This document shows, one piece after another, positions 4,640-12,248 of a stretch of DNA of 38,183 nt. The notes beneath the pieces are model-generated. The model was not told the DNA's origin. It worked only from the letters and a program-made list of their open reading frames with translations, and searched no databases. Made by a program: the position numbers and the translations under genes. Source of the DNA: Desulfobacterales bacterium (GTDB lineage: Bacteria > Desulfobacterota > Desulfobacteria > Desulfobacterales > UBA5852); assembly GCA_030065275.1 (NCBI GenBank), contig JASJCV010000003.1, positions 1-38,183 on the forward strand. The letters run 5' to 3'. Position 1 is the first letter of the stretch. The number at the start of each line of letters is the position of its first letter.

Positions 4640-5641
4640 ATGGGAACGACGACGGCGGCCATTACGGGGGTTAACGCCTGGGTGCCGGATGATGTGCTGA
4701 CCAATGCCGAACTGGCCACCATGGTGGATACGAGCGACGAATGGATCACCACCCGCACGGGCATCAAGGAACGGCACATTCTCAAAGGTAAGGACCAGGG
4801 GACTTCGGTGATCGGCATCGAAGCCGTCAGAGGGCTTCTGGCCAAAACCGGCACCGATCCCGGTGAAATCGACCTGTTGATCTGCGCCACCACCACGCCG
4901 GACATGCTGTTCCCGGCCACGGGCAATATCATCACCAACGCCGTGGGCGCGGTCAATGCCTTCAGCTACGATCTGCAAGCCGGATGCTCCGGCTTTCTCT
5001 TCGCCCTGACCACGGCGGCCCAGTATATCGTCACGGGTCACTGCCGCAAGGCGGTCGTGGTGGGGGCGGACAAGATGTCCGCGATCATCGATTACCAGGA
5101 CCGCGCCACCTGCATCATCTTCGGCGACGGTGGCGGGGCGGTTTTGCTGGAGCCTTCGGGTGAGGCGTTGGGGGTGCGTGACGCCCTGCTGCGTTCGGAC
5201 GGCTCCGGTGAACCCTACCTGCACATGAAAGCCGGCGGCAGCCGGCGCCCGCCATCTATGACCACTGTCGAGGCCCGCGAGCACTATGTCTACCAGGAAG
5301 GCTCCACCGTATTCAAGTTCGCGGTAAAGAACATGGCCCAGGCGGCCTACGAAATCATGACCCGCAACGGCCTGAGCGCCGAAGACGTGGCCTATCTGGT
5401 GCCCCACCAGGCCAACAAGCGCATCATCGACGCCACAGCCGAGAAGATGGGCCTCGGTCCTGAGAAGGTCATGCTCAACATCCACAGATATGGCAACACC
5501 ACCAGCGGCACGATTCCTCTCTGCCTACACGATTACGAGAAGCAGCTACGCCGGGGGGACCATCTCGTCCTGGCGGCCTTCGGGGCCGGTTTTACATGGG
5601 GGGCCGTGTATCTGCGTTGGTCTTACGACAGCGCGCAGTGA
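4640..5641 (+). CDS. fabH: Beta-ketoacyl-ACP synthase III
   Basis: 333 aa; DEWITTRTGIKERHI, LQAGCSGFLFAL (active-site Cys), VPHQANKRIIDA, HRYGNTTSGTIPL are FabH signatures. Confidence 0.95.
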   Translation: MGTTTAAITGVNAWVPDDVLTNAELATMVDTSDEWITTRTGIKERHILKGKDQGTSVIGIEAVRGLLAKTGTDPGEIDLLICATTTPDMLFPATGNIITNAVGAVNAFSYDLQAGCSGFLFALTTAAQYIVTGHCRKAVVVGADKMSAIIDYQDRATCIIFGDGGGAVLLEPSGEALGVRDALLRSDGSGEPYLHMKAGGSRRPPSMTTVEAREHYVYQEGSTVFKFAVKNMAQAAYEIMTRNGLSAEDVAYLVPHQANKRIIDATAEKMGLGPEKVMLNIHRYGNTTSGTIPLCLHDYEKQLRRGDHLVLAAFGAGFTWGAVYLRWSYDSAQ

Positions 5642-5748
5642 AAGGGCTTGGTGACAGGATTATCCGATGTTCGATCCATCCGCGTGCGGCAGGAACACCG
5701 CGGCAATCGGGCGGCGCCGCTGGTGGAAGCTTGTATCGCCCGGCCGGC

Positions 5749-6042
5749 CTACCATTCACTCCGGGCGACTTCGTGCACCCTGGAATCCTTTCCCAGTCTT
5801 ACGGTAACACGGTCGCCGACCATCAGGCCCTTCAACCGCTCCGGATCGATACCATAGATCACGACGACCGACCCTTGGCTTTGGCTCAAGAGCAGATCGC
5901 CGGTGATCGGGCTGATGGTCAGAATGGTCCCCTCGACCAGGCGTTCCGGAGGATTATCGGCCGGCACCGGCCCGGCGGCGATCGCGCCTAACGCGATCAG
6001 CAAAATGACGACCACCCAGATGGGGATTCTCAGCCTTTTCAT
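5749..6042 (-). CDS. Small exported protein with N-terminal signal/anchor, unknown function
   Basis: 97 aa MKRLRIPIWVVVILLIALGAIAAGPVPADNPPERLVEGTILTISPITGDLLLSQSQGSVVVIYG...; SD-like GGAGGG upstream of ATG; overlaps the receiver gene by 89 bp. Confidence 0.65.
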   Translation of the reverse strand: MKRLRIPIWVVVILLIALGAIAAGPVPADNPPERLVEGTILTISPITGDLLLSQSQGSVVVIYGIDPERLKGLMVGDRVTVRLGKDSRVHEVARSEW

Positions 6043-6511
6043 AGATACCCTCCACTTTGAACTTGGCCCGATGCAATGATTCCCGGAAGCGCTGCGTCCT
6101 GGCCGTCGGCGTTTTGCAGGGCGCCGGGCGCTCTCCGGGCGGGCAGGCCTCGAGCAGGGCCACTTCCTGAACGGCCCTCAAAAAAGCCGTACGCGTAAAC
6201 GGTTTGTGAAGCACGCCCACCGGATGGCAGCGCTGCTCCATCTTGAGGCTGGCCAGATAGGGCGCTGAATTGCCGGTTATATAGAGGGTTCGCACCATGG
6301 GCGCGTGGCGCCTGATGGCGTGCATCATTGCGATCCCGTCCTGCCAGGGCATTTCGATATCGGTGACCACCAGGTCCGGACGCATGTTCAGAAATTGGTT
6401 GTAACCGAGAACACCATTGCTGGCGATGAACACTTCATGGTTTTCCTGGGATAGAATCGCTTCGATAACGGAAAGAATAACGGTGTTGTCGTCAACGATT
6501 AGAATCTTCAT
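5954..6511 (-). CDS. Single-domain response regulator receiver protein with C-terminal tail
   Basis: MKILIVDDNTVILSVIEAILSQENHEVFIASNG...PDLVVTDIEMPWQDGIAMM...LYITGN...VLHKPF: D/D, Asp, T, K receiver residues; SD AAAGGAG upstream. Confidence 0.88.
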   Translation of the reverse strand: MKILIVDDNTVILSVIEAILSQENHEVFIASNGVLGYNQFLNMRPDLVVTDIEMPWQDGIAMMHAIRRHAPMVRTLYITGNSAPYLASLKMEQRCHPVGVLHKPFTRTAFLRAVQEVALLEACPPGERPAPCKTPTARTQRFRESLHRAKFKVEGIYEKAENPHLGGRHFADRVRRDRRRAGAGR

Positions 6512-6574
6512 AACCGGGCTCCTTTCGAGCAGACAAAAAGGTTGGCCGTTCCCTGCATTTCCATTTTGTTATTC

Positions 6575-6590
6575 AGCAAATTATGTGCCG
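6575..6590 (-). promoter_or_regulatory. Sigma-54 (-24/-12) promoter upstream of the receiver gene
   Basis: Minus strand reads CGGCAC-ATAAT-TTGCT (consensus TGGCAC-N5-TTGCW), about 65 bp upstream of the ATG at 6511. Confidence 0.7.
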
Positions 6591-7084
6591 TTTTTGCAAC
6601 AATCTGAAATCATTATTTATATTGACTTTGTTGCGGCAAATAAGGTGTTCAAATTGATTGAAAAACCCTTCAAATGGAGGGCGGCTATCATGCCAAAATT
6701 TCTATAAGACATAGAAATAATTCAGTATATTTGAATATGCATGGATTAGTCTGCATGGGGCGTACGATTAAATGCACGCCTCATGCTGGAGTGGTTGGCA
6801 TTTCGGTCGCCGAGGGATGCCGATACCGGCATGCCGATCGTCGATTGAGGACCTCCAGCCCAAACCTTCTTCCATATCGGTAGGTTGTATGCGCCTCGCC
6901 AAAAAGCCGCCGAAGCGATCCGAAGCCCCCGGCCGGCGACTTCCTCAAGGCATCCGTCACAGCGCTGCGGCCCGCCGCGCTTGGAAACCTGTAGGGCCAA
7001 GCCTGCAGTGCCTCAAACCGTCCAAACACCCAATAAATCAAAATATACTAATGATTATAATGATTTAAATTGGATCCAGCCCTT

Positions 7085-7100
7085 TGGCACCCTCTTTGCT
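7085..7100 (+). promoter_or_regulatory. Sigma-54 (-24/-12) promoter upstream of the small exported protein gene
   Basis: TGGCAC-CCTCT-TTGCT, a complete match to TGGCAC-N5-TTGCW, 125 bp upstream of the ATG at 7225. Confidence 0.82.
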
Positions 7101-7224
7101 CTACTCTATTGGCGTTCGAGACGGGACGCCTGGGGGCCTGTTCAGACAATCCCGGGAAGTGAGCGGTCCACGGCAGGATTCCGTCGGTACTCCAGACAAC
7201 GAAATATATACAAAGGAGGTCGAA

Positions 7225-7524
7225 ATGGGTAACTTCATGAAAGCATTAGTGGTGCTCTTGGCCCTGGGTTTGGTGGCGACATGGTCCGTATGGGCCAGCG
7301 ATCAGGTCAGCCAGGGGGAAGCCGTTGAAGTCACCGGCACCGTGCTCGAGAACGGTCAGCTGCAGGATGATACTGGACAGACGCATATGCTCGCGAAGGA
7401 TGAAGAGACAATGGAGTTGATGAGCCATGTGGGCGCCAAGGTTCAGATCAAAGGTACGCTGATCGAGCAACCCGAGGGCGAACGCGTCATCAAAATTAAA
7501 TCCTACCAGGTGGTAAAACCTTAG
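7225..7524 (+). CDS. Small exported protein, unknown function
   Basis: 99 aa from ATG 7225 with SD AAAGGAGGT: MGNFMKALVVLLALGLVATWSVWASDQVSQGEAVEVTGTVLENGQLQDDTGQTHML...; clear signal peptide. Confidence 0.8.
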   Translation: MGNFMKALVVLLALGLVATWSVWASDQVSQGEAVEVTGTVLENGQLQDDTGQTHMLAKDEETMELMSHVGAKVQIKGTLIEQPEGERVIKIKSYQVVKP

Positions 7525-7602
7525 CCACCTTTCCCATCCGGGATACCCCGGCGGGCGGGGGCTGGCGCCGCGAAGACGGTTCGGCCTCCGCCCGCTGCCA
7601 TT

Positions 7603-9009
7603 TCAGCCGTTACGAAAAGTTTTCGGATCAAGGCCGTGTTTTTTAAGCAGGTTGTAAAAGTCGGCCCGGTATTTGCCCGCCATTTTGGATGCCTGGCTGA
7701 TATTGCCGCGGGTCGATTCCAGTAGCTTGGACAGATAGTTGCGCTCAAAGTCCGCCTTGGCATCCTTGAGCGGCAGGACGGTATTGCCGGCCGGGACCTG
7801 AAACGGATGGCGTAAAATGGCCTGGTCTCGAATCGATGCGCTGTCGGACAGGGCCACGGCACACTCGATCGTATTCTCCAGTTCGCGCACATTACCGGGC
7901 CAGGCGTAGGTCATCAGTTTGCGCATGGCCGCGGCTGAAAAACCCTTGATGTCCTTGGACATGATCCGGGCATACTTCTCCAGAAAGTGCCTGGCCAGCA
8001 GCGGGATATCTTCCCGGCGTTCGCGGAGTGTCGGCAGTTTGATCGGGATCACGTGAATGCGATAGAAGAGATCTTCCCGGAAAGTGCCTTTATGAATTTC
8101 GGTTTCCAGGTGTTTATTGGAGGCCGCGATAATCCGTATATCCACGTTGACCGTCTTGCGGCCGCCAACAGGAAAAAAAGCGCGCTCCTCCAAAACCCGC
8201 AGAAGCTTTACCTGCATGCTCGACGGCATCTCCGAAATTTCATCCAGAAAAAAGGTGCCGCCATGGGCTTCCGCCATCAGGCCCTTGCGGTTGCGGTCGG
8301 CACCGGTGAAAGCCCCCTTTTCGTATCCGAACAATTCGCTTTCGAGCAGCGTTTCAGGTATGGCGGCACAGTTGATGGCCACAAAGGGCCCCTCGCGGCG
8401 TGGGCTGCACATGTGCAGGGTTTTGGCGATCAGTTCCTTGCCCGTCCCGCTCTGGCCCTCGATGTAGACGCTCGATTCGGACTGCGCGGCCTGAGATACC
8501 TGATCCAGGACGCCCTGGATGGCGGCGCTGCGGCCGATGATGTTTTCAAAGCTGTAAGCGTCCTTGACCATGCTGCGCAGGCGATGAACCTCCTGGGACA
8601 GGCGCTGCTGCTCCAGGGCTTTTTCGACCTGTACCAGAAGCTCGCGGCCTTCGAAGGGTTTGGTCAGGTAACCGAAGGCCCCCCGGCGCATGGCGTCGAC
8701 AGCGGTTTGGATGGTGCCGTAGGCTGTCAAGATGATGACCGGGAGGCCGGGATGGACTGCGTGCACGGTTTCCATCAGTTCGATACCGTCGCTATCCCCA
8801 AGCCTGAGGTCCAGCAGCACGAGGTCAAAGGCTTGGGTTTCCAGAAGACGTCGGACGTCGGCGGCGTCCGCCGCCGTGGACACGGTATAGCCTCCTGAAA
8901 GCAGCCGCATCTCGAGCACCTGCAGAATGTTCGGATCGTCATCGACCGCCAGGATGTGACGCCCTGAGCGATCGTTCGTCGATTGGTGTTCGCGAATATT
9001 AGGCATCAT
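7603..9009 (-). CDS. glrR: Sigma-54-dependent response regulator, GlrR/QseF-like (receiver-AAA+-Fis HTH)
   Basis: 468 aa; receiver ILAVDDDPNILQ..., Walker A GQSGTGKE, GAFTGA loop (KGAFTGADRNRKG), C-terminal HTH; ordered after a kinase and a lipoprotein as in glrK-qseG-glrR. Confidence 0.88.
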   Translation of the reverse strand: MMPNIREHQSTNDRSGRHILAVDDDPNILQVLEMRLLSGGYTVSTAADAADVRRLLETQAFDLVLLDLRLGDSDGIELMETVHAVHPGLPVIILTAYGTIQTAVDAMRRGAFGYLTKPFEGRELLVQVEKALEQQRLSQEVHRLRSMVKDAYSFENIIGRSAAIQGVLDQVSQAAQSESSVYIEGQSGTGKELIAKTLHMCSPRREGPFVAINCAAIPETLLESELFGYEKGAFTGADRNRKGLMAEAHGGTFFLDEISEMPSSMQVKLLRVLEERAFFPVGGRKTVNVDIRIIAASNKHLETEIHKGTFREDLFYRIHVIPIKLPTLRERREDIPLLARHFLEKYARIMSKDIKGFSAAAMRKLMTYAWPGNVRELENTIECAVALSDSASIRDQAILRHPFQVPAGNTVLPLKDAKADFERNYLSKLLESTRGNISQASKMAGKYRADFYNLLKKHGLDPKTFRNG

Positions 9010-9045
9010 GTCGCTTTTTGGGTGCCGAAATGGCCACCGGTGATC

Positions 9046-9570
9046 CTATTCCAAAGAAAGGTCAACGGCCTTGAGACGCTCCAGACGTTTTTCCATCCGG
9101 CGCAGATCCGCCTTGCGGGCCTCAATTTCCTGCTGCAGGCGATCGTTGTCGCTCTGCAGCGTTCCACACGCCTCCAGCTGGGCGTTGCGTTCGTCCAGCA
9201 AGCCGATCCAAACGGTCGCGTCGACCGCCAGGGGCGATTCCGGGTGTTCCTCGGCGACCCGCTGAAAGTAATTTCTGGCCGCTGGGAGACTGCGGGCCGG
9301 ATTGCGTTTGTCAGCGGCCACCATGCCGGCAAGATACAGTCTTCGGGGGTCGGCGGGTGCGTCCGCCCGATCCGGAATCGGTGCCAGAAGTTGTGCGGCG
9401 CAGGCGAAATCCTGTAGCCGCCGGCAGGCTTCCACCTGCTCAAACCGGATTTCGATGGGCGAGATCGGCGCCTGATCATGGGCGCAGCCGCCGATGAGGA
9501 AGAATCCCGTCACGCCAACGGCAAGGTGAAACAGAAAGTGCTGCCTTGTCCCAACCGGCTCTCGGCCCAT
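9046..9570 (-). CDS. QseG-like lipoprotein lying between the kinase and regulator genes
   Basis: 174 aa; MGREPVGTRQHFLFHLAVGVTGFFLIGGCAHD lipobox-like sequence, repeat-like helical middle, coiled-coil C-terminus. Start codon uncertain because it overlaps the kinase end by 61 bp. Confidence 0.72.
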   Translation of the reverse strand: MGREPVGTRQHFLFHLAVGVTGFFLIGGCAHDQAPISPIEIRFEQVEACRRLQDFACAAQLLAPIPDRADAPADPRRLYLAGMVAADKRNPARSLPAARNYFQRVAEEHPESPLAVDATVWIGLLDERNAQLEACGTLQSDNDRLQQEIEARKADLRRMEKRLERLKAVDLSLE

Positions 9571-10964
9571 AACTTTCCTCCGTGCGCGGCAACGATATGC
9601 TTGGTGATCGAGAGGCCCAGTCCGGTGCCGCGTCCGGTTTCATGGCCGACGTCGATGCGGTGGAATTTGTCGAAGATGTTGTCGAGCTGATCGGCGGGAA
9701 TCCCGCATCCCGCATCCACCACCCGGACAAGCAGTCCGTCGCCGTTGTCCGGCGCGAGTGAGGCTTCGATGCGCACGGCCCCGCCAGCCGAAGAGAATTT
9801 CAAGGCATTGCCGATCAGGTTCTCCAGAACCTGGTGAATCCGTTCGCCGTCGGCCGCTACGGCCGGAAGACTCTCAACTGGCTTGATTTCCAGCGCAATG
9901 TCACGTGAAATGGCGATGGGGGCCAGTTTCAGGACGCTGGCGCGCAGAATTTCAAGTAAATCGAGTGGTGCGATGACATAGTCCATCATGCCGGCTTCCA
10001 TGCGGGAGAGATCCAGCATTCGGTTGACGGAGGCGATCAATCGGTCGCATTCGTCCTTGACGATGGCCAGAAGCTGGCGCTGGTGCCCGGGCTCCCGGCG
10101 GAAGCGATCCTCCTCCAGGAGGCTGCTGGCCTCCTTGATGGCGGTCAGGGGGGTTCGCAGTTCGTGCGAAACATGGCGGATAAAGTCTTCTTTCATGGCA
10201 TTCAACTCGCCCAGGCGCAGGCACATGGAATCAAAATCCCTTGACAGGGATGCAATTTCAGGCGGCGCCTCGATCGGGGGCAGTGGTTTAAAGCGGCCGG
10301 CGGCGACCTCGCGGGTCTTGCGCTGCAGCCGCTTGATCGAACGGTTGATGCTGCGGGCGTTGCCAAAGGAGACCAGCAGGCCGATGACGACACCGATCAG
10401 CACGGCGGCCACGCTGGTGCGGACCACGTTGGCGCTGATCCGGCTGGAAAGCGCGATCTTGGCGTCGCGCGCCCGGCGCGCCCGGCTGATCAAATGTTGC
10501 AAATGCTGCCTCAGGGCGTCGATCATTTCGCCCGTAAGGGTCGCTTCGACGCCGTCGACTGTTTCCTCGCTCCCCGCAGCGCGTTGACGCTCCTGTTCGA
10601 CGCGGTTGAAATACGCCTGGCTCAGCCGCGCGATGGGTGCCACCTGTTGGACCATGTCTCCAGCGCTGGCCAGATGCCGTAAGCGGTCCTGAATGCTCTT
10701 GTGCGCTTGGTGTATTTCTTCGAAACGCCGGTAAAAAGCCTCGTCCCGGGTCACCAGATAACGTTTTTCGAAGCGCACCAGCGATGCCGTGGATTCGCTC
10801 AACGCCTCGCCCAAACGGATGATTTCGCTGTCCACGTGGGCCACTTTTTGAATGATGACATTGAGCCGATTGAGCTGAACCGAAACGAAGACCCCTACGG
10901 CCACCAGCACCAGCATGAATACGAGGTAGCCCGACATCAGACGTTGAAAAAGGGGCAAGGGCAT
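9510..10964 (-). CDS. glrK: Membrane sensor histidine kinase, GlrK/QseE-like
   Basis: From ATG 10964: MPLPLFQRLMSGYLVFMLVLVAVGVFVSVQLNRLN..., second TM, HAMP, FIRHVSHELRTPLTAIKEASSLL (H box), NLIGNALKFS (N box), GRGTGLGLSITK (G box). The longer ORF (to 12146) is antisense read-through. Confidence 0.88.
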   Translation of the reverse strand: MPLPLFQRLMSGYLVFMLVLVAVGVFVSVQLNRLNVIIQKVAHVDSEIIRLGEALSESTASLVRFEKRYLVTRDEAFYRRFEEIHQAHKSIQDRLRHLASAGDMVQQVAPIARLSQAYFNRVEQERQRAAGSEETVDGVEATLTGEMIDALRQHLQHLISRARRARDAKIALSSRISANVVRTSVAAVLIGVVIGLLVSFGNARSINRSIKRLQRKTREVAAGRFKPLPPIEAPPEIASLSRDFDSMCLRLGELNAMKEDFIRHVSHELRTPLTAIKEASSLLEEDRFRREPGHQRQLLAIVKDECDRLIASVNRMLDLSRMEAGMMDYVIAPLDLLEILRASVLKLAPIAISRDIALEIKPVESLPAVAADGERIHQVLENLIGNALKFSSAGGAVRIEASLAPDNGDGLLVRVVDAGCGIPADQLDNIFDKFHRIDVGHETGRGTGLGLSITKHIVAAHGGKLWAESRLGQGSTFCFTLPLA

Positions 10965-11276
10965 GCTGTATTCCCACCAGCAAGGATCGCGCCAGACCAA
11001 CCGCCCTGAAGGGGTGGTAAATAAATATTTGAATATACTTGTAATTTTTTGTGATGCCAATGAGGTCCAAGCGGTTTTTAAAAGCCCGGCGGACAGAAAA
11101 TTGCACAAAAAAATACTAAAAATAAACGGTTGCGCACATCCGGTGCTAACAGAACACGGGGACAAGACGGTCGGAGCGGCGTTGCCGCCGCCGGATGACT
11201 CCGGCAAACGATCGCCGCGCCCAAAAAAAGGCTCAGGGCGCGCCGTCAATCCACGGCGGTGCGGGAAAGGATCCAT

Positions 11277-12248
11277 ATGGCGTCGGTCAGGGTCATTGCA
11301 CGTTACGTATTGGTCATAGGTATTCTCGCAGGGGGGCTTGTACCGGGGGGGTGTCAGCCAACGCCCCCATCGGCGCAGGCGCCAGCCCCATCTCCGCAAA
11401 TTCCCGTTCGACAGACGGGCCTGATCGCGGCTGCAGATCTCATCGAAACCAGCGGTATGGCTTCTGCGCGCCGCGAAGCCGACCTGCTTTGGATGGTCAA
11501 CGACGGCGGGCATGCGCCTTGCCTTTTCGCCGTGCGATCGGATGGCGCTGACCTGGGACGCGTGACCGTCGAGAGGGCGCGCAATGTAGACTGGGAGGAT
11601 CTGGCCGGTTTTGAATGGGAGGGACAGGCCTTGATTCTGATTGCGGATGTGGGCGACAACCGTGCCGTGCGGGACGCCGTCCACATTTACGTGGTCGCGG
11701 AACCGACCCGACGGCCGGACGGCGGTTTTCCCGCGCAGGTGGACATTGCCTGGCAGTTTGCCTTTCGCTATGAGGACGGCCCGCGTGATTGTGAAGCGGT
11801 CGGGGTCGACACACGGCGCGGGACGATTCTTCTGGTCACCAAACGCACCACCCCGCCCCAGCTCTATTCCCTCCCCTTGCGGCCGGAAGCAGGCGTACCC
11901 GTCGTGGCCCGAAGAATCGGCACGCTGCCCCGGATTCCACCCCCGACCGCAACCGATCGGGTGCGCTATCCGCGCTTCGGGAAATTGTTTTCCCAACCCA
12001 CCGCCATGGATATCCGGCACGACAACCGCCTGGCGGTGGTCATGACCTACAAGGACGCCTATCTTTTCTCGCGCCTCAATGGTGAAAGGTGGGCGGACGC
12101 CTTTTCGCGTATCCCCCAGACTGTGGCCATTCCCCATCTCAGGCAAAAGGAAAGCGCCTGCCTGACGCCCGACGGCCGCAAGCTCTATATTACCACCGAA
12201 AAACGCCCGACCCCGCTATTGGTGGTTGATCTTGGGTCCAACCCCTAG
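11277..12248 (+). CDS. Predicted lipoprotein/exported protein of unknown function
   Basis: MASVRVIARYVLVIGILAGGLVPGGCQPTPPSAQAP... signal with GGC, low-complexity linker, then ETSGMASARREADLLWMVNDGGHAPCLFAV, repeated beta-rich segments suggestive of a propeller. Confidence 0.72.
   Translation: MASVRVIARYVLVIGILAGGLVPGGCQPTPPSAQAPAPSPQIPVRQTGLIAAADLIETSGMASARREADLLWMVNDGGHAPCLFAVRSDGADLGRVTVERARNVDWEDLAGFEWEGQALILIADVGDNRAVRDAVHIYVVAEPTRRPDGGFPAQVDIAWQFAFRYEDGPRDCEAVGVDTRRGTILLVTKRTTPPQLYSLPLRPEAGVPVVARRIGTLPRIPPPTATDRVRYPRFGKLFSQPTAMDIRHDNRLAVVMTYKDAYLFSRLNGERWADAFSRIPQTVAIPHLRQKESACLTPDGRKLYITTEKRPTPLLVVDLGSNP

Follow-up and report, generated by a model that had tools for sequence, protein, structure and literature searches.

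The analysis of a 38-kb window, the whole stretch of DNA studied (38,183 nucleotides of a Desulfobacterales bacterium), points to a GlrK-QseG-GlrR-like three-component system, the regulator of which very probably activates in a direct manner both divergent sigma-54 promoters located at 6575-7100. This suggests that an envelope-sensing switch that activates a small RNA in E. coli would drive here a stand-alone receiver and two exported proteins of small size. The genes concerned (Table 1) had been described in an initial annotation as encoding a 99-aa exported protein (p99), a receiver (REC) and a 97-aa exported protein (p97), and these open reading frames were found as described, the export of p99 and p97 being predicted solely from their signal peptides. 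The GlrR-type bEBP proposed at 7603-9009 also corresponded to an open reading frame of the minus strand, encoding a GlrR-like protein.

Table 1. Features located in the window. Positions of enhancers and IHF-like elements are relative to the -24 box of the promoter indicated.
Feature	Coordinates	Strand	Sequence	Characteristics
p97, 97-aa protein with signal peptide	5749..6042	-		overlaps REC 3' end; kept in 4 of 5 relatives
REC, receiver-domain protein, 185 aa	5954..6511	-		PF00072, E 5.6e-18
sigma-54 -24/-12 element for REC-p97	6575..6590	-	CGGCACATAATTTGCT	1 mismatch; recurs in four relatives
IHF-like element	6596..6610	-	ATTTCAGATTGTTGC	-20 of REC -24 box; 9.9 bits, matrix from other genera
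Candidate GlrR enhancer	6655..6672	.	TGAAGGGTTTTTCAATCA (minus-strand reading)	-82 of REC -24 box; 13.9 bits; 2/1000 shuffles as good; window rank 1
Second candidate GlrR enhancer	6738..6755	.	TGCAGACTAATCCATGCA (minus-strand reading)	-165 of REC -24 box; 11.7 bits; window rank 2
Candidate GlrR enhancer	6990..7007	.	TGTAGGGCCAAGCCTGCA	-95 of p99 -24 box; 11.3 bits; 4/1000 shuffles as good; window rank 3
Weak IHF-like element	7054..7068	+	ATTATAATGATTTAA	-31 of p99 -24 box; only 5.1 bits
sigma-54 -24/-12 element for p99	7085..7100	+	TGGCACCCTCTTTGCT	0 mismatches; recurs in five relatives
p99, 99-aa protein, signal peptide and predicted OB-fold	7225..7524	+		translation; structure model; strong Shine-Dalgarno AAAGGAGGT
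GlrR-like response regulator	7603..9009	-		receiver, AAA+ with GAFTGA, Fis-type HTH; aligns with E. coli GlrR over 450 aa at 47% identity
Lipoprotein	9046..9570	-		QseG-like position and C-terminal motif
GlrK-like histidine kinase	9510..10964	-		HAMP, HisKA, HATPase; family profile vs E. coli GlrK 155 bits
-24/-12-like element	10979..10994	-	TGGCGCGATCCTTGCT	directly 5' of kinase ATG; without enhancer dyad

Two -24/-12 elements had been annotated between these genes, one at 7085 on the plus strand pointing to p99 and another at 6590-6575 on the minus strand pointing to REC and p97. The former was recovered as an exact match and the latter with one mismatch, and the outward-facing, back-to-back disposition claimed for the pair agrees with the elements and with the flanking ORFs. 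A -24/-12 match on its own is weak evidence; with up to two mismatches 24 matches were seen in the 38-kb window versus 20.4 expected, and an exact match appeared in 17 out of 200 shuffles of the window. When the 713-bp intergenic stretch was shuffled 2000 times, an exact site together with a second site at no more than one mismatch never appeared. Conservation is stronger evidence for both promoters than these shuffle statistics. In a sample of six genomes of one family, including the window's own genome, the p99 gene is convergent to glrR in all five relatives and preceded by its -24/-12 element at no more than one mismatch (TGGCACTCTCCTTGCT, TGGCACCCTCCTTGCT, TGGCATCAGCTTTGCT, TGGCATCGCCTTTGCT, TGGCACTGAGCTTGCA), and the receiver gene has its own element, with two mismatches at most, in four of them (CGGCACGGATATTGCC, CGGCATGTTTATTGCT and TGGTATGCCTTTTGCT, the last one twice). 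The initial annotation had named as refuting an absence of the promoters from relatives that carry these genes; the check found them conserved. The hallmarks of predicted sigma-54 promoters are present, with GG at -24, GC at -12, standard spacing, conservation in orthologues and an rpoN gene found in the window's genome. In one relative (L059, genome G002) the p99 frame, at 1155-1424 of the minus strand, breaks off after its first half with the promoter intact, suggesting a frameshift or an assembly error.

The initial annotation had not included the enhancer dyads, the IHF-like element and, just upstream of the kinase start codon, a third -24/-12-like element. Side-by-side reading of the regions upstream of the promoters has revealed a recurrent imperfect 18-bp dyad with the consensus TGTAKG-N6-CMTACA (palindromic matrix). 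The matrix was trained on 31 sites, which came from 16 out of 21 promoters belonging to other genera and families. The window genus contributed no promoters to it, a hold-out that is not fully blind because the seed consensus was picked by eye from a printout containing the window. The dyads are often paired, mostly at about -93 and -171 counted from base 1 of the -24 box; of 31 promoters, 25 have a site scoring 10 bits or more at the near position and 17 have one at the far position. Among 38,166 positions of the window, the three top-scoring ones are all located between the two promoters, at matching positions, the p99 promoter having a single dyad and the REC promoter two. These window sites, with 11-14 bits, are weaker than those of other families (15-24 bits), and their outer bases are degenerate (TGT/TGA/TGC ... 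GCA/TCA/GCA); the order-wide consensus fits the TGT-N12-ACA geometry.

A composite pattern of promoter plus dyad gave 46 matches in 195 genomes of the order versus 2 for the reversed pattern. These matches were commoner in genomes with this GlrR (19/37 vs 21/158, Fisher p 2e-6), an association diluted by several low-scoring matches that resemble chance and are apparently within genes. When the composite search and the matrix were applied to the window's genome only these two promoters were left, although further targets are possible because the assembly is 81% complete. The E. coli site TGTCN10GACA was also considered, but upstream of all the promoters it gave no full match and only three at 7/8 bases, and its composite produced 17 matches in the 195 genomes versus 7 for the reversed control, a much weaker result than that of the dyad. 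Exact-palindrome counting failed to recover the dyad motif because its sites are imperfect, and an AACCT-N14-AGGTT repeat noted early was abandoned, the dyad being preferred.

Most promoters have an element of the form WWTCARNNNGTTA, resembling an IHF site, at about -31; where the near enhancer stands at -82 rather than -93, the element lies at about -20. The whole arrangement thus seems to shift together, by roughly one turn of the helix. With one mismatch at most to the IHF consensus, elements were present in 13 of 31 promoters, versus a shuffle mean of 6.4 and a maximum of 12.

The best NCBIfam match of the regulator is GlrR (NF011695), with 483.5 bits, and the protein is termed GlrR-like because this score is below the equivalog cut-off of 763 and the glmY target is absent. 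A close GlrR was found in 37 of the 195 genomes; the order kinase-lipoprotein-regulator was present in the window and at most of the additional loci retrieved, many of which have strong -24/-12 elements no more than a few hundred bases away from glrR. In the mechanism proposed, the lipoprotein would pass the envelope state on to the kinase, which would phosphorylate the GlrR-like regulator, and the regulator would occupy the 18-bp dyads, the one at 6990 serving p99 and those at 6655 and 6738 serving REC-p97. Bending of the DNA, probably by IHF, would bring the regulator to the sigma-54 RNA polymerase, and p99, REC and p97 would then be made, p99 and p97 being small proteins of the envelope that act beyond the cytoplasm and REC perhaps accepting phosphate as a side branch or a sink. 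The sequence shows the promoters and the dyads, where they lie and that they are conserved, and at this level the regulatory wiring is well supported; the signal, the actual binding of the dyads by this regulator, the use of IHF and the functions of p99, p97 and REC are inferred.

The alternative that deserves most attention, although unlikely, is that the promoters are genuinely sigma-54-dependent but controlled by another bEBP, with the closeness to glrR being incidental. The window's genome holds many bEBP-like candidates, and the sigma-54 promoters of many p99-family genes at other places lack the dyad, some of these genes having other bEBP genes as neighbours. The dyad, however, adjoins glrR in many families, conforms to the E. 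coli GlrR geometry and is associated with genomes carrying this GlrR, and together with the location of the three best window matches between the promoters this supports the link of GlrR to both promoters that had been put forward in the initial annotation. It is far harder to credit that both -24/-12 matches arose by chance, a possibility close to negligible in spite of the lack of enrichment of the motif at two mismatches or fewer and of its exact occurrence in shuffled windows, because the elements are kept in five and four relatives, the dyads are correctly placed, and most p99-family loci carry the element. In 29 of 33 p99-family loci (including at least one duplicate) it was found at no more than one mismatch within 420 bp upstream, in a few cases at about 300-420 bp, whereas the controls gave 0 (reversed) and 1 (reverse-complement).

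Another reading is that the p99 promoter chiefly makes a regulatory RNA, a GlmY-like analogue contained in the leader of about 113 nt, with p99 being secondary. The activation of the small RNA glmY by E. coli GlrR and the length of the p99 leader speak for it, but this explanation is very improbable considering that a full Shine-Dalgarno sequence precedes p99, that p99 is conserved as a protein, that unrelated proteins follow the same promoter type in other families, and that no GlmY RNA was matched in the Rfam scan of 5600-11500. At 6753-6803 of the minus strand the MS2 operator hairpin of Rfam was matched below threshold (27.3 bits versus a gathering threshold of 40), probably by chance.

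The proposed direct activation of both promoters by the GlrR-like regulator resembles most closely the E. coli GlrK-QseG-GlrR system (QseE-QseG-QseF) with glmY and rpoE, which has the same kinase-lipoprotein-bEBP gene order. The regulators are 47% identical and the kinases are homologous end to end (155 bits for the alignment of the kinase-family profile with E. coli GlrK). E. coli GlrR (QseF) binds, aided by IHF, to TGT-N12-ACA sites upstream of glmY (PMC6075780); three sites are found there, each an 18-bp dyad, and in the window candidate dyads of the same length likewise lie upstream of neighbouring sigma-54 promoters, together with IHF-like elements. Autoregulation of GlrR through the dyad was discarded since no dyad is present at the -24/-12-like element of the kinase, in agreement with E. 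coli (PMC6075780). Differences were observed in the inner dyad bases, TGTAKG here and TGTC in E. coli, and in the recognition-helix region, GKYRADFY in the window regulator versus GRNRTEFY in E. coli GlrR, and the change in the helix would fit the change in the bases. The lipoprotein of the window type is similar to QseG in a short C-terminal motif only, and the predicted output consists of exported proteins and a receiver, unlike the glmY output of E. coli. The system is thus a GlrR-like variant of GlrK-QseG-GlrR that is predicted to work alike but misses the GlrR cut-off and the glmY target.

Clusters of qseEGF have been published for Gamma- and Betaproteobacteria and Acidithiobacillia (PMC12691602), so that the present findings would extend a known envelope-sensing switch beyond the groups where it was reported; they also provide an enhancer code for a GlrR-like regulator that is open to testing, and bring up an uncharacterised family of small exported proteins nearly always under predicted sigma-54 control. 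A search of the open literature, with subscription papers outside its scope, gave no account of this regulon. In Desulfovibrio vulgaris, sigma-54 response regulators such as DVU1419 and DVU3381 bind palindromic sites, also beside their own genes, and their targets are hypothetical or related to envelope stress (PMC3333781, PMC4641369). DVU1419, which has an 18-bp motif, is set apart by its operon with an Hpt protein and by its other targets.

The p99 protein, modelled from its single sequence, shows the strand order b-b-b-a-b-b with pLDDT 82-90 across most of the mature part. OB-folds are barrels of five strands in which a helix separates strand 3 from strand 4. Matches of p99 in the PDB are largely OB-folds, although weak (best E about 0.01), with PF01336 below its cut-off, and the model also matches weakly NlpE, the E. 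coli Cpx activator. The structure prediction of p97 gave no usable model (pLDDT 54).

The GlrR dyad was found at about a dozen p99-family loci, the rest being without it. The p99-family genes distant from glrR (L185-L205) mostly have strong sigma-54 promoters and no GlrR dyad, and some dyad-less genes of the family adjoin genes for other bEBPs. At other places the genes that follow the dyad encode receivers, an outer-membrane-like protein, an MreB-like protein and exported proteins that share a GGGCFIATAA motif, all of them named by sequence reading. At five loci (L085, L090, L092, L096 and L112) sigma-54 elements downstream of glrR are followed by exported proteins with the motif GGGCFIATAA(F/Y)GS, and in another genome (L155, G071) a paired GlrR dyad with a sigma-54 element lies ahead of the MreB-like gene. 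A broader interpretation, about which doubt slightly prevails, is that the p99-family OB-fold exported proteins are a general sigma-54-dependent envelope output of the order, served by different bEBPs for different copies, GlrR being only one of them; the GlrR enhancer and the recognition helix would have evolved in concert, and the genes under control (OB proteins, receivers, CFI-box proteins, an MreB-like protein) would have been exchanged between families with the promoter architecture kept constant.

With respect to the sensor side, the kinase-lipoprotein pair is consistent with the sensing of an envelope signal. No significant profile match was obtained between the lipoprotein and QseG over the full length, and in most families the lipoprotein C-terminus, LKxIDLxIEEKKR, aligns with the QseG segment LTDIERQLSTRK. 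Residues L209 and R219 of Salmonella QseG are required for QseE binding (PMC12691602), and their spacing would place both in this segment. The lipoprotein of the window ends in LKAVDLSLE, the basic C-terminal pair being missing in the window genus. The start of the lipoprotein gene overlaps the kinase 3' end (9510-9570). Of 30 loci, 21 have an overlap of 61 nt and most others come near that, so that the signal peptide is encoded by the stretch for the kinase C-terminus in a different frame. The -24/-12-like element at the kinase ATG, which would yield a nearly leaderless mRNA, is kept within the family (L054, L055, L056 and L058).
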